Source: Thermoleophilia bacterium | GTDB lineage: Bacteria; Actinomycetota; Thermoleophilia; RBG-16-64-13 | Assembly: GCA_017882525.1 (NCBI GenBank) | Contig: JADGPI010000132.1 | Coordinates: 1-48,498 of the forward strand | Direction of reading: 5' to 3' | Length of the DNA stretch: 48,498 nt | In this document: piece by piece, positions 1,258 to 33,131 of the stretch | Numbering within the stretch: position 1 is the stretch's first letter | How the letters are laid out: the number at the start of each line of letters is the position of its first letter | Program-made: the position numbers and the translations under genes | Notes under the pieces: generated by a model | The model's database searches: none | The model's input: only the letters and a program-made list of their open reading frames with translations | What the model was told of the DNA's origin: nothing

Positions 1258-2193
1258 CTACGTCAAAGCCGTGTGGAGGATCGTCTCCACCAGGTCTTCG
1301 TACGAGAGTCCTGCCGCCGCAGCCTGCGCGGGGAGGTCCGACAACTCGGTCATGCCCGGCAGAGTGTTCACCTCCACGAACCATGGGGTGCCGGCGGCAT
1401 CGACCATAAGGTCGACGCGGCCGTATCCGCGACAGCCTATTGCCCGGAAAGCTGCGATCGCGAGGCGCTGCGACTGTTCGTAAGCGATGGGGTCGAGCCG
1501 GGCCGGCAGGATGAAATCGGTCATGCCGCCCGTGTACTTGGCCTCGTAGTCATAGAACTCTCTTTTGGGAACGAGTTCCAAAACCGGCAGGGCAATCAAC
1601 TGGCCATCGCGGTAGAGCACCCCGACTGTGATCTCGGTCCCGGCTACGAAACGCTCGGCGAAGATCGGGCCGAACTCGGAGCGTAGCCGCTCCACCAGCG
1701 ACGGCAGCTCAGCACGATCCTTGCACTTGACAACGCCGAGGCTTGAGCCTTCGTTGACCGGCTTGAGCATCACCGGGGAGCCAAGGGTGGCTCCGATGCG
1801 CGCGGCGATCTCGCCGGCAGGCTCCTCGGGGTCTATCTCGCAGAAATCCGGAGTGGGGACACCGCTGGATCGGGCGATCTTCTTGGCGGAGATCTTGTTC
1901 ATGCCGAGGGCGGAGGCCAGCACTCCGGAACCCGTGTAAGGGATGCCCATCACTTCAAGCAGCCCCTGGATGGTGCCGTCTTCACCATAGCGGCCGTGGA
2001 GAGCCAGGAACGCGATCTCTACGTTGTTATCGCGCAACCGTTGGGCGACATCATGAAGAGCGTCGATGCGGACCACCCGGTATCCCCGGGACTGCAATGC
2101 GCGGACGCAATTCTCGCCTGAGATGAGAGAGATCTCCCGCTCCCCGGACAATCCGCCCATGAGCACGCCGATGGTCTTGGCCTTCAGATCCAT
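1258..2193 (-). CDS. ddl: D-alanine--D-alanine ligase (start probably at MDLKAK; ORF extends to 2214)
   Basis: GGLSGEREISLISG, ALHGRYGEDGTIQGLLE, FYDYEAKYTGG, WFVEVNTLPGMTE ATP-grasp ligase motifs. Confidence 0.93.
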   Translation of the reverse strand: MDLKAKTIGVLMGGLSGEREISLISGENCVRALQSRGYRVVRIDALHDVAQRLRDNNVEIAFLALHGRYGEDGTIQGLLEVMGIPYTGSGVLASALGMNKISAKKIARSSGVPTPDFCEIDPEEPAGEIAARIGATLGSPVMLKPVNEGSSLGVVKCKDRAELPSLVERLRSEFGPIFAERFVAGTEITVGVLYRDGQLIALPVLELVPKREFYDYEAKYTGGMTDFILPARLDPIAYEQSQRLAIAAFRAIGCRGYGRVDLMVDAAGTPWFVEVNTLPGMTELSDLPAQAAAAGLSYEDLVETILHTALT

Positions 2194-2228
2194 GGCGGAA
2201 CTGTACCACAGCACCCAGCGGCGAAAGT

Positions 2229-3119
2229 CTAGCCGACGGCAGCCTTGGCGCGCTCGGGCATGGGCTCGTGCGGGGAGGCGACGCGGCGGAAAGCAGCCGT
2301 GCTGAACGCGCCGTCCTCAGCCACCTGCAACAGCTCGTCTGCATCGAGGCCGTCGCTTGGGGCCGACGCGCAACCTACCAGACATTCGATCCGCCGGCCA
2401 TCGACGAGATGCTCGCCCACCTTGCGACCGACCATCTCGGCCGCCAAGATCGCCTGGGCGGGGTCGCCCGAGAAGAGGAAGGCGATGCGGCCACCAGGGA
2501 GATGGAAGTGCTGAGCGTCAGGCCCGAGATGACGCATCGCGCGCCGGGTCACCGCGGTCAAGGTGTGTTGGGCCACCAGATCCCCGTAATAGAAGACGGT
2601 CTCCTCGAAGCGCACCAACTGCACCAGAACAAGGCTGAACGTGGATCCGCGAGTGGCGAAGAGCCGCATCCGGGCGCGCAGGGCAGCGTCCAGGTCCTCG
2701 ATCTCGGGCGACACGCCAGCGTCCTCCATCCGTGCGGGATATTCCCCCGACCGGACCTCCTGGACTCGCTCGCGGCGAGAGAGCCCGACACTGACGGCGA
2801 ACCCGCCTACCCACACCCCCGAGATGACAACCCGCAGGGGAACGTGGCTACTCCAGACAAAGAGGGGGAGGAGGATGGCGAAGTCGGTGAGACAGAGCAG
2901 ATACCCAAGGCGGCGGTCGGAATGAAAGACGGCGGTAAGGCGGAGGGTCCAGAGGGAATACAGTAGCAGGAACAGGAGGTAGAACATCCAGAGAATCGGC
3001 GAACGTACACCAGAAAGAGGGGGTCCGATCAAGCCTAGTGCCCCCAGGAGAAGGAGCCGGGCCCGAGCCTTTCGATGCTCGTTGCGAGGAAGGAGCCAGG
3101 CTGTGGTCAGGCTATTCAT
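2229..3119 (-). CDS. Membrane protein with degenerate GGDEF-like domain (ORF extends to 3179; start probably MNSLTTAW)
   Basis: Several hydrophobic helices followed by a region resembling a GGDEF domain in which the signature reads GGRIAF. Confidence 0.6.
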   Translation of the reverse strand: MNSLTTAWLLPRNEHRKARARLLLLGALGLIGPPLSGVRSPILWMFYLLFLLLYSLWTLRLTAVFHSDRRLGYLLCLTDFAILLPLFVWSSHVPLRVVISGVWVGGFAVSVGLSRRERVQEVRSGEYPARMEDAGVSPEIEDLDAALRARMRLFATRGSTFSLVLVQLVRFEETVFYYGDLVAQHTLTAVTRRAMRHLGPDAQHFHLPGGRIAFLFSGDPAQAILAAEMVGRKVGEHLVDGRRIECLVGCASAPSDGLDADELLQVAEDGAFSTAAFRRVASPHEPMPERAKAAVG

Positions 3120-3245
3120 GTAATCTGTCTTGCAGTATAAGAGGTCTGCAGACGTTTTGCAATGCTTATTGCTAAACATAGTAATTGAAACGGAGGGCGG
3201 CCTAAGTGGCCGAGAAAGCCCGCGTTACCGGGGTAAAATAGTGCA

Positions 3246-4718
3246 ATGAAGGAATTCGCACTTTTAGTCCTAGATCTGCTCAGCCGCTCGCGCCCTGACT
3301 ACGCCGATGTCCGCGTCGTGCGACGTCGACAGGAAGGCATCCAGGTCAAGAACGGGCGGCTGGAGGCCTGGTCCGACGAAGAAGATGTGGGCTTCGGCGT
3401 TCGATTGCTTCTGAACGGCTACTGGGGGTTCGCAGGCGCCAGCGAGCTCACGCCGGAACGCGCCGGCAAAGTGGTGGCACAGGCTCTCGAGATCGCGTCC
3501 GCATCCGAAAGCCTCGGGGGGGCCCGCGCGCGCCTGGCTCCTCAAGGAGTCCGCAAAGAGGACATGGTCGGCCGCTGTCTGGAGGATCCATTCTCGATGT
3601 CTCCGGAGGACAAGGTGGAGTTTCTGCTCGGGGCGACGGAAGGTCTGCGTAGCCCGGGCGTCAGCTTAGCCGTGGGCAAGTTCGGGGCGCTGCGCGAGCA
3701 GAAAGTGTTCGCGTCTACCGAGGGAGCGCTGATCAGTCAGACCCGCACCGAGACAGGCGGCGGCATTGAAGCCACCGCGGTGGCGGCCGGCGACGTGCAG
3801 ACTCGGTCTTATCCTTCCGCGGGTCATGGAAGCTGGAACCAGGGAGGGTTCGAGGTCGTGCGCGGCTTCGGATTTGCGGAGAATGCGCCGCGCCTGGCCG
3901 AAGAGGCCGTGGCTCTTCTCACGGCAACGCGGTGCCCCGACCAAGTGACCACCGTCATCTTGGACGCCGATCAGATGGCTCTTCAACTACACGAATCGGT
4001 CGGCCACCCTACGGAGTTCGACCGTGTTCTCGGCAGCGAGATCAGCTACGCCGGCGGCAGTTTCCTCAAACCGGAATACCTTGGCCACTTCCGTCTGGGC
4101 TCGGAGCACGTGACCATCGTGGCCGATGCTACCCTGCCATCCGGGGTGGGCTCGGCCCCCTTCGACGACGAAGGCGTGCCTGCCCAGAGGAACGTGCTGG
4201 TCCACCACGGAGTGCTGAGCGGTTTTCTCACCTCGCGAGAGACCGCCCCCATCCTTGGCCAAACATCCTCCGGCGCGATGCGCGCGTCCAGTTGGAACCG
4301 CCTGCCTCTCATCCGGATGACCAACATCAGCATCCAGCCTGGACAGGGCTCCCTAGAGCAGCTGATCTCCGACGTGAAAGAAGGCGTGCTCCTGTCCACC
4401 AACAAGAGCTGGAGCATCGACGATCTGCGCCTCGACTTCCAGTTCGCCACCGAGATCGGGTGGGAGATCAAGAACGGCCGCCTGGGACGGATGCTGCGCG
4501 ACTGCACATACACGGGCACCACGCCCGCCTTCTGGCGTTCTTGCGATGCAGTGTGCGGACCGAAAGAATGGCGGCTCTTTGGCGTGGCCAACTGCGGCAA
4601 GGGCGAGCCCGGCCAAGTGGCCCATATCGGTCACGGCGCCGCGCCCGCCCGGTTCCGCGACGTGCGCGTAGGGATCCCAGGCCGGAGCGTCGCTGGTCGC
4701 GCTCCGAAGGGTGCGTGA
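3246..4718 (+). CDS. tldD: TldD-family metalloprotease
   Basis: HExxxH motif in LQLHESVGHPTEFDRVLG; GVGSAPFDDEGVPAQRNVLVHHGVLSGFLTSRETA. Confidence 0.9.
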   Translation: MKEFALLVLDLLSRSRPDYADVRVVRRRQEGIQVKNGRLEAWSDEEDVGFGVRLLLNGYWGFAGASELTPERAGKVVAQALEIASASESLGGARARLAPQGVRKEDMVGRCLEDPFSMSPEDKVEFLLGATEGLRSPGVSLAVGKFGALREQKVFASTEGALISQTRTETGGGIEATAVAAGDVQTRSYPSAGHGSWNQGGFEVVRGFGFAENAPRLAEEAVALLTATRCPDQVTTVILDADQMALQLHESVGHPTEFDRVLGSEISYAGGSFLKPEYLGHFRLGSEHVTIVADATLPSGVGSAPFDDEGVPAQRNVLVHHGVLSGFLTSRETAPILGQTSSGAMRASSWNRLPLIRMTNISIQPGQGSLEQLISDVKEGVLLSTNKSWSIDDLRLDFQFATEIGWEIKNGRLGRMLRDCTYTGTTPAFWRSCDAVCGPKEWRLFGVANCGKGEPGQVAHIGHGAAPARFRDVRVGIPGRSVAGRAPKGA

Positions 4719-4721
4719 GAG

Positions 4722-6116
4722 ATGGCACTTTTCGGTAGAGAGCGGTGCCTGGACGCAGCTTCCACCGCCGTCAAGTCCGCACTGGGCGTCGGTGCCACGG
4801 AGGCCGAGGCCGTGCTGATGACCGAGGACTCGGGTCTTACCCGCTACGCGCACAACCGGATACACCAGAACGTGGCGGAGCGAAACACAGAGCTGCGCGT
4901 GCGGGCAGTGGTCGGACGACGAGTCGCCGTCGCCAGTAGCAACCAGGTCGATCAGCGCGCCGTCCGGGAGCTGGCCGACCGAGCGGTCTCCCTCGCCCGG
5001 CAGGGCGCAGACGACGCGGCTTTTGCCGGGCTCCCGGCACCGCCTGCCGCTCCGTACCACGAGCAGAACACCTATTACGAGTCGACCGCGGAGATCGGCC
5101 CAGGCGAGCGAGCGCAAGCGGTAGCCCAGATCGCCGGCCTACTGGAAAGTGTGGGTACCGAGGGCTTCGGTGTTGTCACCTCGGCCACATCCGAGCTCGC
5201 GATATGCAACTCGCACGGCGTCCACGCATACCAGCCGTTCACAGACGGGTGGATGTCTTTGGTGGCCCGCAGGAACGAGTGCAGCGGCTATGCGTCACTG
5301 GCGCACCGCGACTGGAGCGAGCTGGACCACGAGTCGCTCGCGTTCCGGGCGCTCAGCAAGACTCCGGCGGGGCGGCGCCGCACACTCCCTCCCGGACAAT
5401 ACACGGTGGTCCTCGAAGAAGACGCCGTTTGGGAGATGCTCGAGTTCCTCTCCCTGGGAGCCCTGAATGGGCTGGCCTACCTGGAGGGCCGCAGTCTTTA
5501 CAACGGCCGCCTGGGGGAAAAGCGATACCCCGGTCATGTTACTTTGCGAGACGATCCCTTCGACACAAGAGGCGCGAACGTGTCTTTCGATTTCGAAGGA
5601 GTGCCGAAGGCTCCGGTTTCTTTCATAGACGCGGGAGTGGTCCGACAGGTGGCCTACGATACGCAGACTGCCTCACGCGAAGGGCGGGTCAGCACCGGCC
5701 ACGCACTGCCCGCCCCCAATGTCCACGGTCCGATGCCGCTCAATCTGGTGCTTGAGCCGGGCGACCGGACCCGGCACGACCTGATCCGCTCGGTGGACCA
5801 CGGCCTTCTCGTTTCCCGCTTTCACTATGTCAACGAGATCGATCCCGGTACGACGATGCTTACCGGCATGACGAGAGACGGGACGTTCCTCATAGAGAAC
5901 GGAGTGCTAGGGGAGCCGGTCGGTGACGTGAGGTGGATCGACTCAGTCGACGGGCTTCTCCAGCGGACGGTCGCCATCGGTGACACCGTCCGGCTGGTCT
6001 CCGGCGGGCCGGGATACGGCACCCGTTTTCTCACCGGTAGCATGGTGCCTGTTCTACTTGTGGAGGATTTCCGGATCACCGGCGCGGCCGAAGGACCCGG
6101 GGCGGATGCCTCCTAG
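4722..6116 (+). CDS. TldE/PmbA-family protein, partner of TldD
   Basis: Directly downstream of tldD; FDTRGANVSFDFEGVPKAPVSFIDAGVVRQVAYDTQTA typical of the TldE/PmbA C-terminal region. Confidence 0.85.
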   Translation: MALFGRERCLDAASTAVKSALGVGATEAEAVLMTEDSGLTRYAHNRIHQNVAERNTELRVRAVVGRRVAVASSNQVDQRAVRELADRAVSLARQGADDAAFAGLPAPPAAPYHEQNTYYESTAEIGPGERAQAVAQIAGLLESVGTEGFGVVTSATSELAICNSHGVHAYQPFTDGWMSLVARRNECSGYASLAHRDWSELDHESLAFRALSKTPAGRRRTLPPGQYTVVLEEDAVWEMLEFLSLGALNGLAYLEGRSLYNGRLGEKRYPGHVTLRDDPFDTRGANVSFDFEGVPKAPVSFIDAGVVRQVAYDTQTASREGRVSTGHALPAPNVHGPMPLNLVLEPGDRTRHDLIRSVDHGLLVSRFHYVNEIDPGTTMLTGMTRDGTFLIENGVLGEPVGDVRWIDSVDGLLQRTVAIGDTVRLVSGGPGYGTRFLTGSMVPVLLVEDFRITGAAEGPGADAS

Positions 6117-6538
6117 GGCACCAGCAGCAACGGGACCTCGATGTGGCGGGCCACTCGCTCGCTGACGCTGCCCAGGACCAGCTCTTTGACTTCCGCCCAG
6201 TTCCTTCGGCTCATCACCACTAGATCGACGCGACAACTCCCCGCCTCGGCGAGGATCACCTCTGCCGGCGAGCCGACCACCACTTTGACTTCCGCGCCCA
6301 CTCCGCGCTCGCGCAGAAGGTCGAGTGCCGGCCGCAGTCCCTCCTGCGCTATGCGCTCGACATACTCCTCCACCACCCGCTCGTCCAAATGGGCTGCGAT
6401 CGCCACCGACTGCGAGACCGGGACCACGGTGAGCACCACGAACTCCGCGCTGTAATGCTCCACGATCTCGAGCGCGGCTCTGACGCCTCTGAGAGAGGCT
6501 TCCGAGCCGTCCGTCGTGACAAGGATGCGGCGAAACAT
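6113..6538 (-). CDS. Universal stress protein (UspA family); start at MFRRILVTTDGSE
   Basis: RILVTTDGSEASLRGVRAALEIVEHY N-terminus and LVLGSVSERVARHIEVPLLLVP C-terminus; the ATG at 6538 fits better than the upstream ORF start, which runs into the tRNA. Confidence 0.85.
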   Translation of the reverse strand: MFRRILVTTDGSEASLRGVRAALEIVEHYSAEFVVLTVVPVSQSVAIAAHLDERVVEEYVERIAQEGLRPALDLLRERGVGAEVKVVVGSPAEVILAEAGSCRVDLVVMSRRNWAEVKELVLGSVSERVARHIEVPLLLVP

Positions 6539-6570
6539 CACGAGCGGTCCCCTGTCTTCTCGAAGTGAGG

Positions 6571-6643
6571 TGGAGGATATCGGGCTCGAACCGACGACCT
6601 CCGCCGTGCAAAGGCGGCGCTCTCCCAACTGAGCTAATCCCCC
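6571..6643 (-). tRNA. tRNA-Ala (anticodon TGC)
   Basis: GGGGGATTAGCTCAGTTGGGAGAGCGCCGCCTTTGCACGGCGGAGGTCGTCGGTTCGAGCCCGATATCCTCCA: complete cloverleaf, G3:U70 alanine identity pair, CCA not encoded. Confidence 0.97.
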
Positions 6644-6686
6644 ACGACGACAATCTGGAACCTTCGGGCCGGGACCCCGTGATAGG

Positions 6687-6760
<74 letters not shown>

Positions 6761-6770
6761 ATGCGCCGGT

Positions 6771-6798
6771 AGTTTACCGGCATTCCTATTGATGTCAA
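6771..6798 (-). promoter_or_regulatory. Sigma70-type promoter for the tRNA-Ile/tRNA-Ala unit
   Basis: Minus strand TTGACA-N16-TAAACT ending about 10 nt upstream of the tRNA-Ile 5' end. Confidence 0.65.
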
Positions 6799-6891
6799 GG
6801 AAGACTCCGGCCGGCCCATCGGGTGTTGCAAATAGGTGACGACTGCGCTCAGTGAGGGTAACCTAGTGATGTCGACCCGCTCGGGGGAAGC

Positions 6892-7377
6892 ATGGAAGGT
6901 TTCGAAAGAGTCGTTGTTTATGGCGTCAGCTTCGACGTCACCAACAAGCAACCCATCGTTCTGCTCAAGGTCGAAGGCAAGAATCGGTTCCTGCCGATCT
7001 GGATCGGCCACCCCGAGGCGGCGGCCATCCTCATGAAACTGCAGAACGCAGAGCTGCCGCGCCCGATGACCCACGACTTGCTCACTTCGGTCATAGGGAA
7101 CCTATCCGCGAGCGTGGAGCAGGTCCTGGTCACCGAACTGCGAGAAAACACGTTCTATGCCATTCTCCGGTTGAAGTCCGGCGGCGACGAGATCGACGTG
7201 GACTCGCGCCCGTCTGACGCCATCGCGGTCGCCGTGCGCACAGACGCGCCCATCTTCGCCTCCACGGAGCTGCTCGAGTCCAACGGCATCGAGTTCGACC
7301 AGGAGATCGAGGACGCCGAGGAGATCGTGAAAGAGTTCAGGAATTTCCTGGAAGAGGTTTCCCCCGAAGACTTCTAG
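6892..7377 (+). CDS. Bifunctional nuclease (BFN/DUF151) domain protein
   Basis: LPIWIGHPEAAAI, RPMTHDLL, IDVDSRPSDAIAVAVRTDAPIF conserved BFN-domain motifs. Confidence 0.9.
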   Translation: MEGFERVVVYGVSFDVTNKQPIVLLKVEGKNRFLPIWIGHPEAAAILMKLQNAELPRPMTHDLLTSVIGNLSASVEQVLVTELRENTFYAILRLKSGGDEIDVDSRPSDAIAVAVRTDAPIFASTELLESNGIEFDQEIEDAEEIVKEFRNFLEEVSPEDF

Positions 7378-7415
7378 AGAGCCTTGGCCGCCGCCCGGCC
7401 CCGCCGCAACCTGGG

Positions 7416-7715
7416 CTACTCGCTTCCCTTATCCCCCATGAGCAGCGCTTCGCTTTTGGCAACCTCGAGTATGCAGCCGTAGATGGTCCGCAGACCCTCG
7501 TCGGTGAGCGGACCCCGGTTGGCGCGCGAAAGGAAGGTGATGACCCAGTCTTCCTGGGCCGCGTCGTAAAAGCTGAGCCCCTGGGTCTCCTTGTAGTCTT
7601 TGAGGCTTTTCACGAGCTTGATGCGCTTGTTCAGGGCATCGAGGATCTTGAGATCGTTGTCTGAGATCTGTTCCCGGTAGTTCTTGACGACCGGGTCGAT
7701 TGCGGGAGACGCCAC
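7416..7715 (-). CDS. Chorismate mutase type II domain protein
   Basis: YREQISDNDLKILDALNKRIKLVKSLKDYKE ... FYDAAQEDWVI helical pattern of AroQ-type chorismate mutase. Confidence 0.75.
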   Translation of the reverse strand: MASPAIDPVVKNYREQISDNDLKILDALNKRIKLVKSLKDYKETQGLSFYDAAQEDWVITFLSRANRGPLTDEGLRTIYGCILEVAKSEALLMGDKGSE

Positions 7716-23022: not shown

Positions 23023-23421
23023 GTGACTCGGTCTCGCGGCCGGCTGTCTCGCTCTGAGGACTTCGCCCGCGTCTACCGGTCGGGCCGGTCTGTTGCCAAT
23101 AGGTATCTCGTTCTATACTATTTCGAGCGCCCTCCGGCCGCGAGCGCGGGCGACGGCGCAGGATGTCCCAGGGTGGGGTTCTCAGTCTCAAAGCGCCTTG
23201 GCTCAGCAGTCGACAGAAATCGCATCAAGCGCGTCCTGCGCGAGGCGTATGGTTTGAATGGTCAGTCCTTCAGGGGGAACATGGACTTCGTATTGATCGC
23301 GCGCGAGCCTCTCGCCGAGCTGCTATCGGCGGAAGGCTTCAAAGCTGTGGAAGCGAAGATGATCGAAGTCTTCCGCAAAGCTTCTCTTTTGGCGCCTCCG
23401 GAGCACCTATCCACGTTGTGA
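23023..23421 (+). CDS. rnpA: Ribonuclease P protein component
   Basis: RLSRSEDFARVYRSGRSVANRYLVLYY ... VGFSVSKRLGSAVDRNRIKRVLREAY. Confidence 0.96.
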   Translation: MTRSRGRLSRSEDFARVYRSGRSVANRYLVLYYFERPPAASAGDGAGCPRVGFSVSKRLGSAVDRNRIKRVLREAYGLNGQSFRGNMDFVLIAREPLAELLSAEGFKAVEAKMIEVFRKASLLAPPEHLSTL

Positions 23422-23837
23422 GCAGCACCTCCAACCCAGTCCGGACCCTTTTGATCTGGGCCGTTCGCGCCTACCAGACGCTGATATCCCCTGCCCTTCC
23501 TCGATCCTGCAAGTATCACCCGTCTTGCTCGCAGTATGCGATCGATGCGTTCAGCCAGTACGGCGTCTTTCGGGGGTTTGTTCTCGCGACATGGAGGCTC
23601 ATGCGGTGCAATCCGCTGAGCTACGGAGGGTACGATCCTGTTGAACGGCAGAGGCTGTTCGAGCCCCGTCCCGTGCCGAGAGCCGACCAGCCGGAGCTGC
23701 GGGTGAATCTCGCCCGCAAAGGCTCATCGCTTCATTCGCGGAAGCATGAGAACGTTACCTGCGACGGGCAGGCTCTCCATGGCGCCGGCCTTCAACCCTT
23801 CCAGGCATTCGCCGGGAGCCGGTCGGTGGAGCAATGA
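23418..23837 (+). CDS. yidD: Membrane protein insertion efficiency factor YidD (GTG start overlapping the rnpA stop)
   Basis: AYQTLISPALPRSCKYHPSCSQYAIDAFSQYGVFRGFVLATWRLMRCNPLSYGGYDPV. Confidence 0.93.
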   Translation: MSSTSNPVRTLLIWAVRAYQTLISPALPRSCKYHPSCSQYAIDAFSQYGVFRGFVLATWRLMRCNPLSYGGYDPVERQRLFEPRPVPRADQPELRVNLARKGSSLHSRKHENVTCDGQALHGAGLQPFQAFAGSRSVEQ

Positions 23838-24757
23838 ACTCGATAGCCAACCTGCTCAGTCCCCTCAGCAAGTTCTTCTTTGCCATTCTCAAGTTCCTTC
23901 ACGGTGGTCATCCGGTGCCTGGCAGCCCGAACCTATGGGTTGGCGGAGTGATGAGTTGGGCTTGGGCAATCGTGCTTCTGACCGTGATCGTGCGGATCGT
24001 GCTCATTCCGCTCACGTGGCGGCAGATCAAGAGCATGCGTGCCATGCAGGCTCTTCAGCCGCGGATCAAGGAATTGCAGGACAAGTACAAAGGCGACCGG
24101 CCGCTTCTCCAGCAGAAGACCATGGAGTTCTATCAGGAGAACAAGGTCAGTCCGTTCGGGTCCTGTTTGCCGCTGATCCTCCAGCTGCCGGTGTTCTTTG
24201 GCCTTTACTACATGCTCAGGGGCCAGTCGGGCGTAAGCCAAGCCGGTGTGCAAGGAGTGCTGATAGGCCAGCCCTGGCTCTGGATACACGACATCACCAA
24301 GTTCGATCTTCTGTTGATGTTCCTGTACATAGCCAGCCAGTTCGTCGCCTCGTGGCAGACGGCTCGCAACGCCGGCGGGCAGCAGAAGATGATCGCGTAT
24401 TTCATGCCGGTGATGGTGGGGATATTCATGTTCGTCGGCAAGTGGCCGGCCGGTCTGTTCATTTACTGGTTCACATCCAACCTATGGACCATCGTTCAGC
24501 AATTCGTCGCTGAAAGAATCATGCCCACGCCGATCCCGATTCAGGCGAGTGCGGTGTCAACACGTGGGGGACCAGCGAAGCCCCCCGCGAAGACTCCCGC
24601 TCGAGTGACGCCTGGGAAACCCGGGGCTCGGCCGGCAGTAAAGAGCGGAGGCAAGCCAAGTGGCCAAAAAGCGGGGACAACAGGGAAGCAAACAGGTGGC
24701 CAGAGCCAACGGCCCAACCGTGGAGCAGGCCGTCCAAAGGGCACTCGCGGAACTTGA
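23834..24757 (+). CDS. yidC: Membrane protein insertase YidC/Oxa1
   Basis: Position after yidD; AIVLLTVIVRIVLIPLTWRQIKSMRAMQALQPRIKELQDKYKGD, FGSCLPLILQLPVFFGLYYML. Confidence 0.95.
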   Translation: MNSIANLLSPLSKFFFAILKFLHGGHPVPGSPNLWVGGVMSWAWAIVLLTVIVRIVLIPLTWRQIKSMRAMQALQPRIKELQDKYKGDRPLLQQKTMEFYQENKVSPFGSCLPLILQLPVFFGLYYMLRGQSGVSQAGVQGVLIGQPWLWIHDITKFDLLLMFLYIASQFVASWQTARNAGGQQKMIAYFMPVMVGIFMFVGKWPAGLFIYWFTSNLWTIVQQFVAERIMPTPIPIQASAVSTRGGPAKPPAKTPARVTPGKPGARPAVKSGGKPSGQKAGTTGKQTGGQSQRPNRGAGRPKGTRGT

Positions 24758-25427
24758 TTTTGCGCCAGGAGAGCTAGCGGAGGACCAGTACGAGGTAATC
24801 ATCCTCGTCCCACCGGAAGAAGGGTTCATGGGTGTGGGCGCGGTCGACGCATTCGTTGAGGTGGCGCTCACGGACGAAGCCTTTGACTTCTTTGGGCCGG
24901 AGGCCGACGAGCAACCTGCGGGCCTTCTGGAAGACGAGTATGAAGATGACGATGAGGATACATTCGATCCCGATGAGACGCCGGAAGCGCACCGACTGAG
25001 AGCGTTTCTCAAACGGGTGCTGGACGAGCTGGATCTGGAGGCGAGAGTCCGCGTCACCGAAAGACCTGACGAGCTCTACGCTGAGGTAACCGGGGAGGAT
25101 CTCGGGATATTCATCGGCCGAAGAGGTCAGACGATCGATGCGGTGGAATACCTGGCGAGCATCGCGGTATTCCCCGAACCGCAAGATCGCAAGCATGTCG
25201 AGGTAGACGCCGAGGGGTATAAGGAGCGGCGGAGGCATCAGATCGAGCGGGTGGCTCTCCGCAAAGCTCAAGAGGTGGCTCGACGCGGCCAGCCTGTTCA
25301 GCTCACTCCGATGACCGCGGCCGAGCGCAAGATCGTTCACGTTGCGCTCAAGAACCGTCCCGATGTTGTGACTGCGAGCCAGGGCCGGGAGCCCAATCGC
25401 TCAGTCGTTATTTCGCCTGCCCCATAG
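24660..25427 (+). CDS. jag: KH-R3H RNA-binding protein KhpB/Jag
   Basis: Jag-N domain, KH-like IFIGRRGQTIDAVEYLASI, R3H-like LTPMTAAERKIVHVALKNRPDVVTASQGREPNR. Confidence 0.93.
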   Translation: MAKKRGQQGSKQVARANGPTVEQAVQRALAELDFAPGELAEDQYEVIILVPPEEGFMGVGAVDAFVEVALTDEAFDFFGPEADEQPAGLLEDEYEDDDEDTFDPDETPEAHRLRAFLKRVLDELDLEARVRVTERPDELYAEVTGEDLGIFIGRRGQTIDAVEYLASIAVFPEPQDRKHVEVDAEGYKERRRHQIERVALRKAQEVARRGQPVQLTPMTAAERKIVHVALKNRPDVVTASQGREPNRSVVISPAP

Positions 25428-25772
25428 GCCGGCGGCGAAGCTTGCACATTGGCGGATTCTCCCGGCGACGGCCGCCGCGTGCACCTTCGGTTCGGCGGGC
25501 ACTTGCGCCGCGGGTGGGCTGACTGAGGCCGGCTCCTGAGCCGAACTGGTGGGCGGACGCAGCCAACCTGGCGTCGGTCGCTCCCTCGCGTGTGGGCGGT
25601 CGGATCCTCCAAAATGGTCGGCCTCCCGGTTTTCTGGCATCATCTCTGCCCCTGGGCACGGGAGGTAGCTGGCGCCAAGGGGACGACGAGGCTTGGCAAG
25701 GGGATCTTGGGCGCGCGTCCGGCCAGAATCTTCAACGACAGACAGACCCACAAGCGGTCGAGAGATCGGCAA

Positions 25773-27206
25773 ATGAGCATTGACCTTCGCAGCGACTCTG
25801 GTGTGGCCAGCGCGGATACCATCGTAGCAATGTCAACGGCGCCCGGCCGGGGGGCGATCGGCATCGTCAGGATGAGCGGGCCGGAGGCTCTCCGCATAGC
25901 AGAGATGGCCTTCAGACCGGCCAGAGGGCCCGGCCTTGATCCGGACGAGACTCATCGTGTTCTGTACGGACACGTGCTGGGCAGAGGGGGCGACTCCGTC
26001 ATAGACGAGGCGCTCCTGGTTGTCATGTTGGCCCCTCGGACATACACCCGCGAAGACGTCGTTGAGATCCACTGCCACGGTGGACCGGCCGCACAGCGAG
26101 AGGTTCTTCGCGAGATTATCGGACTCGGCGCCCGGCTGGCGGATCCAGGCGAGTTCACCCGCCGAGCTTTCGTCAACGGCCGAATCGACCTAACACAGGC
26201 AGAAAGCGTGGCCTCTATCGTTTCGGCCAAGAGCAGCGCCGCGTTGAGGGCCTCTGTGCGACAACTTGGAGGCGGTCTTTCCGACAAGCTGCGGGCCGTC
26301 CGCAAGCGTCTGATAGAGGTCCTCGCTCAACTCGAGGTGACCGTCGACTTCGCCGACGAGGATGTCGACAACGTAGATTGGGCGAACGCCGTTGCGACGC
26401 TTGGCTCGGTCGAAACGGAGTTGCGCTCACTTCTCGACACTGCTTTTCTCGGAAGAGCGCTCGAGCAAGGAGTCAGCACGGCGATAGTCGGCCGACCGAA
26501 TGTCGGCAAGAGCTCGCTGCTCAACGCGCTTCTGATGAAAGAGCGAGCAATCGTGTCGGAGATTCCCGGGACGACCCGGGACACGGTCGAGGAATTGATC
26601 GAGATCGGGGGCATCCCGCTCCATCTGGTCGACACGGCTGGAATCAGAAGCGGCGGGGATCACATCGAGCAAATGGGTGTAGAAAGGTCCCGCCAAGCCA
26701 TGGAAGAGGCAGATCTGGTACTTGCGGTGTTTGATCTGTCGATTCCATGGGAGCCGGCGGATACCGGACTGCTTGAGGGATTGGATCCCGCGCGGTCCAT
26801 TGTAGTTGGCAACAAGGTAGATCTTGTTCAGGAGTCTGACGTCCGGCGACTTACCGAGAAGGTCGCGGTTGCCACGGGGCGTGAGGACTGGTCGATCTGC
26901 GCGGTCTCGGCGGCGGTGGGCAGCGGACTCGGCGAACTCCGCGAAACGATCCAACGGAAGGTCGCCGGGGAACAGGGAATGCATCTCGAGGAACCGATGC
27001 TGGCGACTGAGCGGCAGCGGAACCTAGTCAAAGAAGCGCTAGAGGGAACGGAAGCGGCCCTGGAGGGTTCTAAGAGGGCCGAATACGAGGAACTGGTGTG
27101 CGAGGATATCCGTGTTGCAGTGAAGGCCCTGGGGCTTATCACGGGCCAAGAGATAACGAGCGACCTGCTTGACGAGATCTTTAGTCGTTTCTGTATCGGG
27201 AAGTAA
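25773..27206 (+). CDS. mnmE: tRNA uridine-5-carboxymethylaminomethyl modification GTPase MnmE
   Basis: IVAMSTAPGRGAIGIVRMSG; GRPNVGKSSLLNALL; C-terminal RFCIGK. Confidence 0.97.
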   Translation: MSIDLRSDSGVASADTIVAMSTAPGRGAIGIVRMSGPEALRIAEMAFRPARGPGLDPDETHRVLYGHVLGRGGDSVIDEALLVVMLAPRTYTREDVVEIHCHGGPAAQREVLREIIGLGARLADPGEFTRRAFVNGRIDLTQAESVASIVSAKSSAALRASVRQLGGGLSDKLRAVRKRLIEVLAQLEVTVDFADEDVDNVDWANAVATLGSVETELRSLLDTAFLGRALEQGVSTAIVGRPNVGKSSLLNALLMKERAIVSEIPGTTRDTVEELIEIGGIPLHLVDTAGIRSGGDHIEQMGVERSRQAMEEADLVLAVFDLSIPWEPADTGLLEGLDPARSIVVGNKVDLVQESDVRRLTEKVAVATGREDWSICAVSAAVGSGLGELRETIQRKVAGEQGMHLEEPMLATERQRNLVKEALEGTEAALEGSKRAEYEELVCEDIRVAVKALGLITGQEITSDLLDEIFSRFCIGK

Positions 27207-27253: not shown

Positions 27254-28762
27254 ATGATCATTAGGGAGCCAAGTGAGCCAAGGGAGCCTTGCCTGGACTC
27301 TCGTCTGGAGTCTCACGCGAGTGGCGCGGTCTTCCCACTCACTGACGGCAGTCGTGGATCTGCCAGCGATGCGCCCCTCGCGGGTACTAGTGCGGGCGAT
27401 CGGCTTGAGGTCTTGATCGTGGGCGGCGGAGTGTCGGGCTGCGCTTGCGCAGCGTCCCTGGCGGTCGCGGGAGCAAGAGTCATACTCGTTAACAGCGCCC
27501 TGGACGTTCTGGGCCTGCCGGGACACGGTCCGGCATTGTTGCCATGTCGTGGCGGCGGGTGGAGCGAGATAGGCGAAGTGTTAGGCGGGCTCCCGAGCCG
27601 TCTTCGGTGGGCGTGGCTGTGTTCGGCGAGTGTCCCCATTGATGGGAGCCCCTGTTTGCTTGTCGACCGACGAGCTGTGAGTTTAGAAGCGAAAAGGGCC
27701 CTTGAAGGCGTCGCCGGGATAGAGTTCCGCCAAGGTCTCGTCGTCGATGTGAGGCCAGCCAAGGGAGGTGCTGCGAACGTGGAGACCAGCGTTACCCCTG
27801 CCCCGGGGAGCGCGCCGGAGGGTGAGAGCTCTGGGAGGAGCAGCGGCGCCGTGCAGCCTGATCGTCGGCGGGTGGAGGTCGTCACCGCGTTCGGGGAGGT
27901 GTTTGCTGGCGACGTAGCCATCATTGCGGTGGGCCTCGGCCTTGGCGGGCGCATCCTGGTCGGCGACGACTCCATGGCCGGCGGCAGATACGGCGAAGTC
28001 GCTGCCGACTTGCTGATGCAGTCCCTCGAAGACCAGGGGGTCAAGTTCCAGTCCGTGGAAGTGGACGAGGGAAGACGGATCTCTGGTAGCAGGTTGGGTA
28101 GCCTCGAGCGTGCCGGGAGGAGGCTGAGTAAGCGCGACGTCGAAGGGACCATTACCGCGCGCTCACTAACAGCCGCCCGGCCAACAGCGGCCTCGTCGGC
28201 CTCTGCGCCACTTGATGATGGAGCCGATCGGTTTCCCGGGGAGCTGCTTGAAGCCCGAGAGGCCCTATTGCGCGTCGCCATGGGCACGGAGGTTGGCGAC
28301 GCCATGGAGCGAGATTCTTGGCGGATGGATTACCCGCTTGCCCCGCACAGGATGGATGAGCTTCGGCGACGCGGGGTGGTGCTGCATCTCAGGACGGCGT
28401 CGCTGGGTGCAAACGGGTCCGAGCCGCTCGTGAGCCCGGATGGCGGCGCTACCGGCGAACTCTATGTTTCCGGGGAGGGTCTTGCAATTCTGGAGGAGGA
28501 CCTCCCGGCGGCTCGGCTGGAGCACGTGATTACCGCCGAGGTGATCGCCGATGCGCAGGGAGGGGGAAGAGTCGCGGAGATCGACGGTGTCTGGGTGGTC
28601 GGCCAGGCGGCCGGAGCAAAGGGGTATCTGGACAGTCTTCAGTCAGGCATAGAAGTGGCTCGCGCGATCATGAGTGACTATCGGACACAAAAGGAACACA
28701 TGATGGCCGGGGGATCGCCGGGGCGTCGCGTCCCCGGACTCGGAAGAAGTAGTTGGTCATGA
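27254..28762 (+). CDS. Divergent MnmG/TrmFO-like FAD-binding protein located between mnmE and mnmG
   Basis: VLIVGGGVSGCACAASLAVAGARVILVNSALDVLGLPG; VAIIAVGLGLGGRILVGDDSMAGGRYGEVAADLLMQSL aligns by eye with MnmG [38 protein letters not shown]; C-terminal GVWVVGQAAGAKGYLDSLQSGIEVARAI. Confidence 0.75.
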   Translation: MIIREPSEPREPCLDSRLESHASGAVFPLTDGSRGSASDAPLAGTSAGDRLEVLIVGGGVSGCACAASLAVAGARVILVNSALDVLGLPGHGPALLPCRGGGWSEIGEVLGGLPSRLRWAWLCSASVPIDGSPCLLVDRRAVSLEAKRALEGVAGIEFRQGLVVDVRPAKGGAANVETSVTPAPGSAPEGESSGRSSGAVQPDRRRVEVVTAFGEVFAGDVAIIAVGLGLGGRILVGDDSMAGGRYGEVAADLLMQSLEDQGVKFQSVEVDEGRRISGSRLGSLERAGRRLSKRDVEGTITARSLTAARPTAASSASAPLDDGADRFPGELLEAREALLRVAMGTEVGDAMERDSWRMDYPLAPHRMDELRRRGVVLHLRTASLGANGSEPLVSPDGGATGELYVSGEGLAILEEDLPAARLEHVITAEVIADAQGGGRVAEIDGVWVVGQAAGAKGYLDSLQSGIEVARAIMSDYRTQKEHMMAGGSPGRRVPGLGRSSWS

Positions 28763-30717
28763 CCCGAAGAGAGTGGACATACGACGTCCTGGTGGTTGGC
28801 GGGGGTCACGCGGGGTGTGAGGCAGCCCTCGCATCGGCCCGCATGGGATGCCGCACGGCCCTGATTACGCTCAGCCTCGACAAGATCGCGCTCATGCCCT
28901 GCAATCCCGCGATCGGCGGAGTCGGAAAGGGTCAACTAACTCGAGAGATCGATGCATTGGGGGGAGAACAAGGACGCAATACCGACAGGGCGTTCATCCA
29001 GATCAAGATGCTCAATACGTCAAAGGGTCCCGCTGTGCGGGCGCTGCGTGCGCAGGCCGACAAGAGACTCTACGAGGACTGGATGAAGGTGGTGTTGTCG
29101 AGAACCCCTGGGCTTGACCTGGTCCAGGGCGAAGTCGCGAAGCTGATTGTTTCACGTGAAACAATCAAGGGCCTGAGGCTTGCCGACGGCCGAGTGCTCT
29201 CAGCGAGGGCCGTCATACTGGCGACCGGGACCTTCCTGCGCGGAAAGATCGTCATCGGAGACAAGAGTTACGCAGCGGGCCGTGTCGGTGAACTCCCCGC
29301 GCAGCTCCTCTCGGAAAGCTTGCGCGCGGAAAACCTTGAGCTGGCCAGGTTTCAATCCGCCACTCCGCCCCGCATCGATGGGAGCACCATCGATCGGGAG
29401 CGAATGCTGCTGCAAGTGGGCGACCCTGGGAGCCTTTCGTTTTCTCATTGGGAGGTACCATCCCCGCGGACACAGGTGCCCTGCTACCTCACTCACACAA
29501 CAAGGCGCACACATGAAGTAGTTGCGAAGCACCTCCACCTCAGTCCATTGAAGAGCGGCTCCGTTAGCGGGAAAGGCCCCAGATACTGCCCGTCGATCGA
29601 CAGGAAGCTCATCAACTTCCCAGATAGAGAGCAGCACCCCGTTTTCGTCGAGCCCGAAGGCATCATGACGAAAGAGATGTACCTGCAAGGCTTGACGACA
29701 AGTCTCCCCGTTTTCGTTCAGGAGATGATCATTCGCGCCACGCCCGGGCTTGAACGTGCGCGGTTGGTGAGGCCAGGGTATGCGGTCGAGTACGACTATC
29801 TCCCGCCTGAGCAGCTTTCGCTGACCCTGGAGACCAGGGCCGTTCACGGTTTGTTCTCGGCCGGTCAGCTTAACGGCACCTCGGGCTATGAGGAAGCGGC
29901 TGCCCAAGGGCTCATAGCTGGGATCAACGCAGCACTTCAGGTGAAGGAGGAGCCGCCTCTGATTCTTCGGCGCGACCAGGGGTATATCGGCGTGCTGGTC
30001 GATGACCTGGTGACGAAAGGCGTGGATGAGCCCTACCGGATGTTCACGTCTCGGGCTGAATATCGCCTGCTGTTGCGTCACGACAACGCTTCGCAAAGAC
30101 TCTCTTCCATAGGCCACTCGCTTGGGCTTATCGGCGAGGCGCAGCTTGCCAAGGTCGACGAGAAGGAACGGCAGATCCGCGAGTACGGAGAGATGCTGGA
30201 AACGTCTTGTGTCAAGTCGAGCCCAGAAACCGACGAGCTACTAGAAACGCTGGGGACTGCACGGCTCGAGGAATCGCAGACCGCAGCAAAGGTCCTCAGG
30301 CGGCCCCAGGTCACCTTCGACCAGCTGTTGAGTATGTTGTCGCAGCATGACCGCGAGCGATTGGAGACCGTTCCGACCGAGGTGCTCGAGCAGCTTCTCG
30401 TCCACGCTCGCTACGAGGGTTACATTCGCCGTCAACTGGCAGAGATCCGCCGTCACCGCGCTACAGAGACCATGGCTATTCCTTCAGACTTCGACTATGC
30501 GCCCCTGGAGGGGTTGACTTTCGAAGCAAAGGACAAGATGGGTCGTCTTCGTCCTGCGACCCTCGGTCAAGCGTCGCGTATACCCGGTGTCTCACCGGCC
30601 GACATTTCGGTTCTCCTGGTGCACGTTCACCGGGCGGGCGCAGGGAGAAGCAGGCCAAGGCGCCATTCGGGCGCGGAAATCACGGTAGTCGAGGGGGAAC
30701 CCCCTGAGACTTGCTGA
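28759..30717 (+). CDS. mnmG: tRNA uridine-5-carboxymethylaminomethyl modification enzyme MnmG (ORF track start 28753 TTG; ATG 28759 preferred)
   Basis: VVGGGHAGCEAALASARMG, MPCNPAIGGVGKGQLTREIDALGG, GLFSAGQLNGTSGYEEAAAQGL, FTSRAEYRLLLRHDNA. Confidence 0.98.
   Translation: MTRREWTYDVLVVGGGHAGCEAALASARMGCRTALITLSLDKIALMPCNPAIGGVGKGQLTREIDALGGEQGRNTDRAFIQIKMLNTSKGPAVRALRAQADKRLYEDWMKVVLSRTPGLDLVQGEVAKLIVSRETIKGLRLADGRVLSARAVILATGTFLRGKIVIGDKSYAAGRVGELPAQLLSESLRAENLELARFQSATPPRIDGSTIDRERMLLQVGDPGSLSFSHWEVPSPRTQVPCYLTHTTRRTHEVVAKHLHLSPLKSGSVSGKGPRYCPSIDRKLINFPDREQHPVFVEPEGIMTKEMYLQGLTTSLPVFVQEMIIRATPGLERARLVRPGYAVEYDYLPPEQLSLTLETRAVHGLFSAGQLNGTSGYEEAAAQGLIAGINAALQVKEEPPLILRRDQGYIGVLVDDLVTKGVDEPYRMFTSRAEYRLLLRHDNASQRLSSIGHSLGLIGEAQLAKVDEKERQIREYGEMLETSCVKSSPETDELLETLGTARLEESQTAAKVLRRPQVTFDQLLSMLSQHDRERLETVPTEVLEQLLVHARYEGYIRRQLAEIRRHRATETMAIPSDFDYAPLEGLTFEAKDKMGRLRPATLGQASRIPGVSPADISVLLVHVHRAGAGRSRPRRHSGAEITVVEGEPPETC
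29148..29163. promoter_or_regulatory. parS: parS centromere-like site
   Basis: Perfect 16-mer TGTTTCACGTGAAACA within 24-bp palindrome TGATTGTTTCACGTGAAACAATCA (29144-29167); parAB genes 2.3 kb downstream. Confidence 0.97.
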
Positions 30718-30772: not shown

Positions 30773-31408
30773 ATGCTGGGAGACCTACTCATGTCCTGGC
30801 CAACAAACGTGACAGCCCTGAGAGAGCCTCACGAGATCGAGCGCATGCACTTTCTCGACTCCCTTTCCCTCCTGGACCTTCCCGCGGTTCGCGCAGCTTC
30901 CAGTATCGTCGACATTGGATCGGGCGCGGGCCTACCGGCTTTGGTGCTCGCATTGGCGCTCCCAGGTGCACAAGTGGTAGCGCTGGAGTCGCAGAGGAAG
31001 AAATGCGCGTTTATCCGTGAGGCGGTTTCGAGAATGGGCCTCGGCAACGTCGTCGTCGAGTGTGCCCGAGCGGAAGACTATGGCCGAAGCCCCCAACGCG
31101 GGTCGTTCGATATCGCAGTTTCGCGAGCCTTGGCTTCTCTGGCCGTATCTGCCGAGCTTTCTTTGCCTCTTCTCCGGCTCGGGGGAGCAATGGTGGCGAT
31201 GAAAGGGGCTATCTCCAACGAAGAGCGTACGCTTGGAGCGAGGGCCCTCGCTATACTTGGGGCCGACTCTTTGGAGCTGGTGCGCCTGGACCCGTTCCCG
31301 GATGCTGAGAACCGTTGGGCTTGTCTGGCAGTGAAGACACGTGATACGGCAGCCAGTTTTCCGCGCAGGCCAGGGATGCCGGCCAAGAAGCCTCTGGGGT
31401 CTGGATAA
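30773..31408 (+). CDS. rsmG: 16S rRNA (guanine-N7)-methyltransferase RsmG (start uncertain)
   Basis: NVTALREPHEIERMHFLDSLSLL; SIVDIGSGAGLPALVLALALPGAQVVALESQRKKCAFI. Confidence 0.95.
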   Translation: MLGDLLMSWPTNVTALREPHEIERMHFLDSLSLLDLPAVRAASSIVDIGSGAGLPALVLALALPGAQVVALESQRKKCAFIREAVSRMGLGNVVVECARAEDYGRSPQRGSFDIAVSRALASLAVSAELSLPLLRLGGAMVAMKGAISNEERTLGARALAILGADSLELVRLDPFPDAENRWACLAVKTRDTAASFPRRPGMPAKKPLGSG

Positions 31409-31480: not shown

Positions 31481-32245
31481 CTGATTTATGCGATCGCCAA
31501 CCAGAAAGGCGGCGTGGGGAAGACCACCACCGCCATCAATCTGGCCGCGAATCTCGCGCAAGCCGGTGAGCGCGTTCTCCTCATCGATATGGATTCCCAG
31601 GCCAATGCGACGCATGGTCTGGGGGTTAGGACTCTGCGGGGAGAACCTACAGTCCTGGAAGTCCTCTTGGGCGAAAAACCGCTGGCATCGATTCTTCGAT
31701 CTTCCTCCGTTCCGCGGCTGGATGTCGCTCCGTCCTCGCCAGACATGGCAGGGTCGAGCGTCCTGCTCCCGAACCTTGATCGCCGCGAGTATCGATTGAA
31801 GGAGGCTGTTGCGGAGATGGCGGACACTCGCGGGAGGTACGACTACGTGTTCATCGACTGTCCGCCCTCGCTCGGACTGCTTACTGTGAACTCGCTTGTT
31901 GCGGCAGATCAGGTCATCATCCCGGTACAGACTGAGTACTACGCTCTCGAGGGACTGGCTCAACTCATCGCGACTGTATTCGCTGTTCGCGAACGTTTGA
32001 ACCCTTCTCTCAAGGTGGCCGGCCTGGTGCTCACCATGATGGACCCGCGCACGACGCTGGCGAGGCAGGTGGAGCAGGAGATTAGGTCACACTTTCCTAA
32101 CCTCAGCTTCAAAACGGTTATCCCACGAAATGTGCGTTTGGCTGAAGCGCCGAGTCATGGGCTGCCGGTTTCACTGCTCGATCCGCACTGTGCTGGGTCG
32201 GACGCTTACTTCGATCTTGCGATGGAGGTTGTAAGTCATGGCTAA
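31481..32245 (+). CDS. parA: Chromosome partitioning ATPase ParA (Soj); apparent CTG start
   Basis: LIYAIANQKGGVGKTTTAINLAANLAQAGERVLLIDMDSQANAT deviant Walker A; ORF-track start at 31514 would truncate the Walker A. Confidence 0.95.
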   Translation: MIYAIANQKGGVGKTTTAINLAANLAQAGERVLLIDMDSQANATHGLGVRTLRGEPTVLEVLLGEKPLASILRSSSVPRLDVAPSSPDMAGSSVLLPNLDRREYRLKEAVAEMADTRGRYDYVFIDCPPSLGLLTVNSLVAADQVIIPVQTEYYALEGLAQLIATVFAVRERLNPSLKVAGLVLTMMDPRTTLARQVEQEIRSHFPNLSFKTVIPRNVRLAEAPSHGLPVSLLDPHCAGSDAYFDLAMEVVSHG

Positions 32246-33131
32246 GAGGCCGGCTCTCGGCAGGGGCTTGGCGGCGCTTCTCGGAGAGGGAGTAAGTGCT
32301 GGAGAAGTCACTCTCTCAGGCGGGGGTGTTGCTTCCGAGGTTGGGACTATTGTCGATCTTCCTGTGGGTTCCATTAGGCGAAACCCACGGCAGCCTCGTC
32401 GAGCCATGGATTCGGAAGGCCTCGAGGAGCTGGCTCGATCTATAGCGGCGGTTGGCATAGTCCAGCCGATCATCGTGCGTCAGACCGTGGATGGCTACGA
32501 GCTAATAGCAGGGGAACGCCGCTGGCTCGCTGCCCAAAAGGCAGGGTTTACCGTTGTCCCGGCCATCCTTCGAGGCGCCTCGGACGTAGAGAGTCTTGAG
32601 ATCGCGCTGATCGAGAACGTGGTGCGCCAACAGCTGAATCCCGTGGACGAAGCCCATGCGCTGCGTATTCTCTTGGAGGACCTCGGCGTGACCCAAGAGA
32701 ATCTGGCGGCTCGTGTCGGCAAGAGCCGGTCTGCCATCGCCAACAAGGTGCGTCTGCTGGACTTGCCGCCCGGCGTCCAGGAGCTTATGAGCGCCGGTTC
32801 TTTGAGTGAAGGGCATGGGCGCGCGCTGCTGGGGGTGGGCGAGCGAGGCCCGCAGATTCGCCTCGCGCGTCGGGCGGCCGAGAAAGGCTTGTCCGTGCGC
32901 CAGGTTGAGGAAGAGGTTCGCCGGCTGAACGAAGGTGCTCCGGCGAAAACCGTGCCTGCTGCAACAAACCTGCCATCCGAAGTGACCGACAGAGCGCGAA
33001 ACAGCTTCTTCTCCTTGTTGGGCGTCATGCCCCGACTGAAGGTGCAAGGAAGGGGCGGCCGAGTCGAGATCCCCTTTTCCGACGCCGAGGAGTTGTGTCG
33101 TCTGCTAGACAGGCTGGAGTCCCAGCCTTAG
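32238..33131 (+). CDS. parB: Chromosome partitioning protein ParB (Spo0J)
   Basis: RGLAALLGEG; IRRNPRQPRRAMDSEGLEELARSIAAVGIVQPIIVR; ERRWLAAQKAG; HTH VTQENLAARVGKSRSAIANKVRLL. Confidence 0.97.
   Translation: MAKRPALGRGLAALLGEGVSAGEVTLSGGGVASEVGTIVDLPVGSIRRNPRQPRRAMDSEGLEELARSIAAVGIVQPIIVRQTVDGYELIAGERRWLAAQKAGFTVVPAILRGASDVESLEIALIENVVRQQLNPVDEAHALRILLEDLGVTQENLAARVGKSRSAIANKVRLLDLPPGVQELMSAGSLSEGHGRALLGVGERGPQIRLARRAAEKGLSVRQVEEEVRRLNEGAPAKTVPAATNLPSEVTDRARNSFFSLLGVMPRLKVQGRGGRVEIPFSDAEELCRLLDRLESQP

Follow-up and report, generated by a model that had tools for sequence, protein, structure and literature searches.

The locus described here raises the question of why a second MnmG-like protein is encoded between mnmE and mnmG, whose products together modify the wobble uridine of tRNA in many bacteria and mitochondria and whose counterparts in humans, MTO1 and GTPBP3, lead to disease when defective. 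The DNA analyzed (hereafter the window) is a stretch of 48,498 nucleotides from a Thermoleophilia bacterium (contig JADGPI010000132.1), in which the gene order is rnpA, yidC, jag, mnmE, X, mnmG, rsmG, parA, and parB (Table 1). X is an ORF that the original prediction, made from the sequence of the window, described as a divergent FAD protein inserted between its neighbors, possibly a third component, a heteromeric MnmG partner, or an enzyme with a new substrate. Both the ORF and its overlap with mnmG were confirmed on the sequence: a GGAG lies 7 nt 5' of the ATG at 27254, and the TGA (28760-28762) overlaps the mnmG ATG (28759) as ATGA, which supports the proposed translational coupling of the two genes. 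X begins 47 nt after the mnmE stop (TAA at 27204-27206), while the start of mnmE itself is uncertain, its frame being open from a GTG at 25590. Elsewhere in the window, tRNA-Ala(TGC) and tRNA-Ile(GAT) lie close to each other on the reverse strand (6569-6760), resembling an rRNA operon spacer.

Table 1. Features of the mnmE-X-mnmG region, in window positions. In tandem MnmG pairs, "up" is the copy adjoining mnmE and "down" the copy adjoining rsmG.
Feature	Position	Strand	Evidence	Remark
rnpA, yidD-like ORF, yidC, jag	23023..25427	+		Upstream context, conserved
mnmE	25770..27206	+	C-terminal FCIGK motif	GTPase partner of MnmG; 5' of X in relatives too
X (ORF, 502 aa)	27254..28762	+	PF01134 6e-15, tree, Foldseek	Reduced MnmG paralog, up copy
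X, FAD-binding glycine motif VLIVGGGVSGCACA	27410..27451	+	Pfam GIDA alignment, family alignment
X, site of E. coli MnmG redox Cys47	27524..27526	+	Alignment	His in X
X, VDRRAVSLEAK block	27662..27694	+	Conserved in X of both families (f1, f6)	E. coli D100 region
X, GGRYGE block	27980..27997	+	Alignments	Common to X and MnmG
X, fast-evolving linker	28085..28303	+	AF2 pLDDT about 40-60, alignment	Replaces insertion domain 2 (MnmG motif 1/Cys277)
X, C-terminal FAD-binding segment GVWVVGQAAGAKGYLDSLQSGIEVAR	28586..28663	+	Alignments	MnmG helical domain beyond it absent
mnmG (down copy)	28759..30717	+	TIGR00136, 788 bits	Full length, both redox cysteines, QADRNT
rsmG	30773..31408	+		Downstream neighbor, conserved
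parA, parB	31514..33131	+		Downstream neighbors, conserved

X is a remote MnmG paralog. It matched the Pfam GIDA family (PF01134) with 55.6 bits (6e-15; gathering cutoff, 22.1) over residues 53 to 265, so the N-terminal FAD-motif parallel from which the prediction started is real; the adjacent MnmG of the window scored 505 bits. Against TIGR00136, the MnmG equivalog, X scored 32.3 bits and did not reach the NCBIfam cutoff of 524.85. All members of the X family (25/25) matched PF01134, and all 25 also matched TIGR00136 (best, 3.5e-39). A profile of 25 relatives of X found MnmG structures in the PDB at 2e-51 to 4e-39, followed by 2CUL at 2e-19 and TrmFO at 4e-9. With an AlphaFold2 model of X (pLDDT 76, pTM 0.79), the 19 best Foldseek matches were MnmG structures (top, 3CP8 at 1.6e-19), after which came 2CUL and, at about 1e-7, glycine oxidase and TrmFO; the TM of about 0.54 against 3CP8 is accounted for by disordered linkers and absent domains. 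These sequence profiles and fold matches place X among the relatives of MnmG, outside the equivalog. The predicted kinship is thereby supported, and neither the profiles nor Foldseek assigned X to an unrelated FAD family such as the glycine or D-amino acid oxidases. TrmFO, a member of the same wider family that acts on tRNA uridine with FAD, is a far weaker match than MnmG, and an identity of X with TrmFO was ruled out (profile, 4e-9 versus 2e-51; Foldseek, 1e-7 versus 1e-19). MnmC, MnmL, and amino acid oxidases were likewise ruled out, the DAO family matching just a 28-residue nucleotide motif, and no PHROGs match spoke for a phage origin. Like X, the GidA-related protein of Thermus thermophilus (2CUL, "probable oxidoreductase") has an MnmG-like FAD core and no helical domain (Foldseek against the X model, 8e-13; TM 0.82 on the target), but at 232 aa it is shorter than X.

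With MnmG (GidA; 3CES, 3CP8, 2ZXI, and 9HIP), X shares the FAD fold, GxGxxG, the GGR block, and the C-terminal FAD segment, but it has neither Cys47 nor Cys277 with motif 1, and it is missing the helical domain and the residues that bind tRNA. The GGR block, the second of the parallels originally noticed by eye, could be aligned to the MnmG of the window (37% identity; E 1e-6), and the C-terminal parallel aligned across the family, with G369 and G373 kept and Y377 present in 13/16 (E. coli numbering). At the Cys47 position, Tyr, His, or Phe is found across the X proteins of the window's family (f1; Tyr in 14/16) and Ala or Gly in those of a second family of the same class (f6). Motif 1 could not be aligned in f1 X and is deleted in most f6 X, and the linker in its place was mostly of low confidence in the AF2 model. 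The tRNA-binding residues of Aquifex aeolicus MnmG (N49, R97, R282, K290, K293, R439, R443, Y545, and R548; PMC4027165), mapped to X and MnmG by conserved spacing, are almost all gone from the X proteins of f1 and f6. The helical domain, to which MnmE binds in MnmG, is gone from the X of the window, whose alignment covers just 0.10 of E. coli residues 398-629. In two relatives (L043 and L054), the X genes contain in-frame short tandem repeats (VPPDQA and VGPSA in the protein), marking fast-evolving stretches.

These losses bear on the suggestion that X is a separate FAD enzyme acting at another step or on another substrate (e.g., trimming cmnm5U, as MnmC/MnmL do) or on another RNA. X keeps its FAD site, is under selection of its own, and lies in an operon with tRNA-modification genes, and the linker that evolves fast might serve in substrate contact. 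However, neither redox cysteine is left in X, nor are the residues that bind tRNA or the helical domain; X is related to DAO-type enzymes by the Rossmann motif alone, and its middle region is too poorly conserved to suggest an active site. The new-substrate enzyme of the original prediction has thus become less likely, and we consider such an enzyme unlikely.

A homolog of X was present in 17/17 genomes of the same family, between mnmE and mnmG wherever the contig was long enough, and the slot mnmE-X-mnmG-rsmG-parA is also filled in f6. Within a class-wide sample of 249 genomes, 39 matched the X/MnmG profile at E 1e-8, nearly all of them from f1 or f6, and many of the 397 genomes in a phylum-wide sample had two adjacent MnmG-like ORFs. 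In all, 62 loci from nine families had both copies on one contig, in identical slot and orientation. The MnmG pair is old and widespread in one branch of Actinomycetota. An intact homolog occupies the slot between mnmE and mnmG in dozens of genomes, a recurrence beyond chance and a conservation that the original prediction had left to a survey; X is not confined to this genome and is under purifying selection. An assembly artifact was ruled out by the recurrence of the arrangement in dozens of independent genomes. The sample was rich in MAGs with many short contigs and, outside the phylum, consisted of plasmid-collection records only. A protein-only scan of a contig collection returned nothing for X, and the distribution rests on the genome search. 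The literature search, which covered open-access publications, turned up no account of paired MnmG genes. Two genomes of families otherwise without MnmG (G131 of f4 and G087 of f3; loci L170 and L171) carry a single canonical-type mnmG (KTGTPPR; IEDK/VEDK), probably through transfer or contamination, and these genes were excluded from the pair counts.

In a tree of 140 sequences, the up copies formed one clade and the down copies another, and leaving out the diagnostic motifs and the recombined region gave each clade a support of 100/98. Since up and down copies each form one clade, the pair predates the split of the families carrying it. The grouping of up with down copies against the outgroups had a support of 54/87, and the pair may have arisen by duplication within the phylum, or one of the copies may represent an older subfamily that was perhaps acquired by transfer. 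The loci and the tree show that X belongs to an old tandem pair of MnmGs, in which it is the strongly reduced copy; this corrects its earlier description as an insertion. The down copy is full length, and the up copies fall into classes of 590 to 636 aa (full), approximately 450 to 490 aa, and approximately 320 to 380 aa. The shortened forms, including the short ones of f1 and f6, have lost the two cysteines, motif 1, the helical domain, and the residues that bind tRNA but retain the FAD glycines, D100, Q122, G369, and G373 almost throughout, and Tyr is found at position 47 in 8/10 mid-length up copies. The shortest up copy, of 223 aa (f14; L162:5104-5775), extends barely beyond the FAD domain, lacks the GGR block as well, and may be decaying. 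In f28 and f67, and probably f72, a down-type MnmG is present and the up copy is absent; the down copy can therefore work alone, as f28 and f67 indicate, and strict obligate complementarity of the copies as a general rule is ruled out by these two families. Immediately 5' of the single mnmG of f72 are an IS607-type resolvase-like ORF and a TnpB-like ORF (L132:204-2026).

The down copies carry Cys47 in 62/62 and Cys277 in 61/62 cases, together with fixed substitutions at positions that do not vary among eight other MnmGs, namely, K198Q, G200A, E281D, and S313T in 62/62 and D282R and R286N in almost all. The resulting signature, QADRNT (KGEDRS in E. coli), was present in 54/58. Nearly all tRNA-binding residues are retained in the down copies, the exception being R286N; judged by spacing, R286 matches a residue with which A. 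aeolicus MnmG binds tRNA (PMC4027165). The up copies of f16 and f29 that are full length have retained both cysteines and share P49S/T, K56R, Q80H, E298Q, and an aliphatic residue at 98. Among 57 pairs in which both states were readable, the down copy had both redox cysteines in 56. At the exception, L150 (up, 1530-3257; down, 3367-5268), Ser replaces Cys277 in the down copy, which also carries Pro at 275 and 282, and it is the up copy in which both cysteines are found; the two roles may have been swapped in this lineage.

Fusobacterium vincentii (NZ_CP084075.1, listed as a plasmid but looking like a chromosome) resembles the X locus in having two MnmGs (L217:3851-5734 and L218; second MnmG, L183/L217), although its copies are both full length and lie far apart in the record. 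The MnmG after mnmE has Q198, A200, D281, R282, N286, and T313, the exact down signature, whereas the one adjoining rsmG has the canonical residues. FusoB was placed with the down clade at an AU p of 0.44 and with the up clade at 0.55; a sister relationship to the down clade is neither supported nor rejected. The six common changes make common descent of the signature plausible.

X is under purifying selection, weaker than that on the adjacent mnmG. By NG86, dN/dS was 0.14 to 0.32 for X in f1, where synonymous distances are large, compared with 0.06 to 0.18 for down copies, 0.09 to 0.15 for the up copies of f29, and 0.12 to 0.37 for up copies outside f29, all of these values being rough because several distances were near saturation. 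X evolves 2 to 5 times faster than the adjacent mnmG. The repeated shortening of the up copies, their long branches, and their outright loss in some families would fit a decaying, functionless MnmG duplicate retained by chance; the relaxed selection envisaged in the original prediction is not what was found, however, and with FAD residues kept, a homolog in every same-family relative, and presence in many families, we regard decay as very improbable.

E. coli MnmG is a dimer that binds MnmE asymmetrically; in the a2b2 complex, MnmE and FAD are bound by one protomer, its partner lacks FAD and has its helical domain disordered, and each dimer seems to take up one tRNA (PMC12397908, PMC4027165). 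The helical domain, motif 1, and the redox cysteines, which X lacks, are exactly the parts unused by the vacant protomer. Over a long evolutionary time, and beside a full MnmG, X has thus lost what the protomer bound to MnmE requires and has retained the FAD core. A heteromeric partner of MnmG, which was among the original suggestions, is now the best-supported reading of X as judged from sequence comparison, and we see an even chance that X serves, without catalysis of its own, as an FAD-domain subunit paired with the adjacent full-length MnmG, which would make MnmG heteromeric. X would take the vacant-protomer position of an MnmG heterodimer and would support the dimer geometry and the handling of FAD or NADH, while the downstream MnmG would carry MnmE, tRNA, and the chemistry. 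The conserved slot, the separate clades, the graded reduction, the retained FAD residues, selection, the signatures, the redox cysteines of nearly all down copies, the second MnmG pieces in up-bearing genomes, and the Fusobacterium pair support a heteromer. Against its necessity counts the absence of an up copy from f28 and f67 (and probably f72), where the down copy can work alone; the fast evolution of X, unusual for an obligate interface, and the f14 form without the GGR block also count against a heteromer.

In a looser association, X would not be a stable subunit of MnmG but would deliver FAD to it, serve it as an NADH reductase, or assist its assembly. Such a role would suit a protein that retains mainly the FAD core, and E. 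coli MnmG binds FAD weakly (KD 74 uM), the binding being tightened by MnmE (PMC12397908). The full-length up copies of f16 and f29 nevertheless keep MnmG motifs beyond a carrier's needs, and we think such a factor improbable. Returning to the heteromer, we also entertain, more doubtfully, a broader form in which two old MnmG subfamilies (KGEDRS and QADRNT) would make an A-B heterodimer where both occur, with A stripped in several actinomycetotal lineages; this would cover Fusobacterium and many Actinomycetota, and the X of the window would be an A subunit cut to its FAD core, exposing how the two MnmG protomers divide their work. The pair suggests that MnmG, studied as a homodimer, may work as two unequal halves in these Actinomycetota. 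The authors of a 2025 cryo-EM study had the idea that one MnmG protomer serves MnmE and one tRNA, and a natural pair with one member intact and the other progressively stripped would make protomer roles directly testable. If the heteromer is real, calling such genes generic FAD oxidoreductases or redundant mnmG hides a distinct component.

Finally, up and down copies share identical DNA at several loci of f29 and f17 (494 nt in L119, with up at 3692-5506 and down at 5564-7603; 413 nt in L126; and 253 + 125 nt in L163), over E. coli positions of about 314 to 477, a region that comprises the second FAD segment and reaches into the first part of the helical domain. Many contigs of f29, f17, f59, f68, and f73 break in this region, and in most of the broken genomes the matching C-terminal MnmG piece is on another contig, several pieces beginning at the first bases of theirs. 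When up-bearing genomes were searched again with whole MnmG, a second, C-terminal MnmG piece was found in nearly all; this search did not find one in G326, G404, and G576, whose contigs end within the up copy. Identical DNA and contig breaks at one region fit gene conversion that disrupts assemblies.
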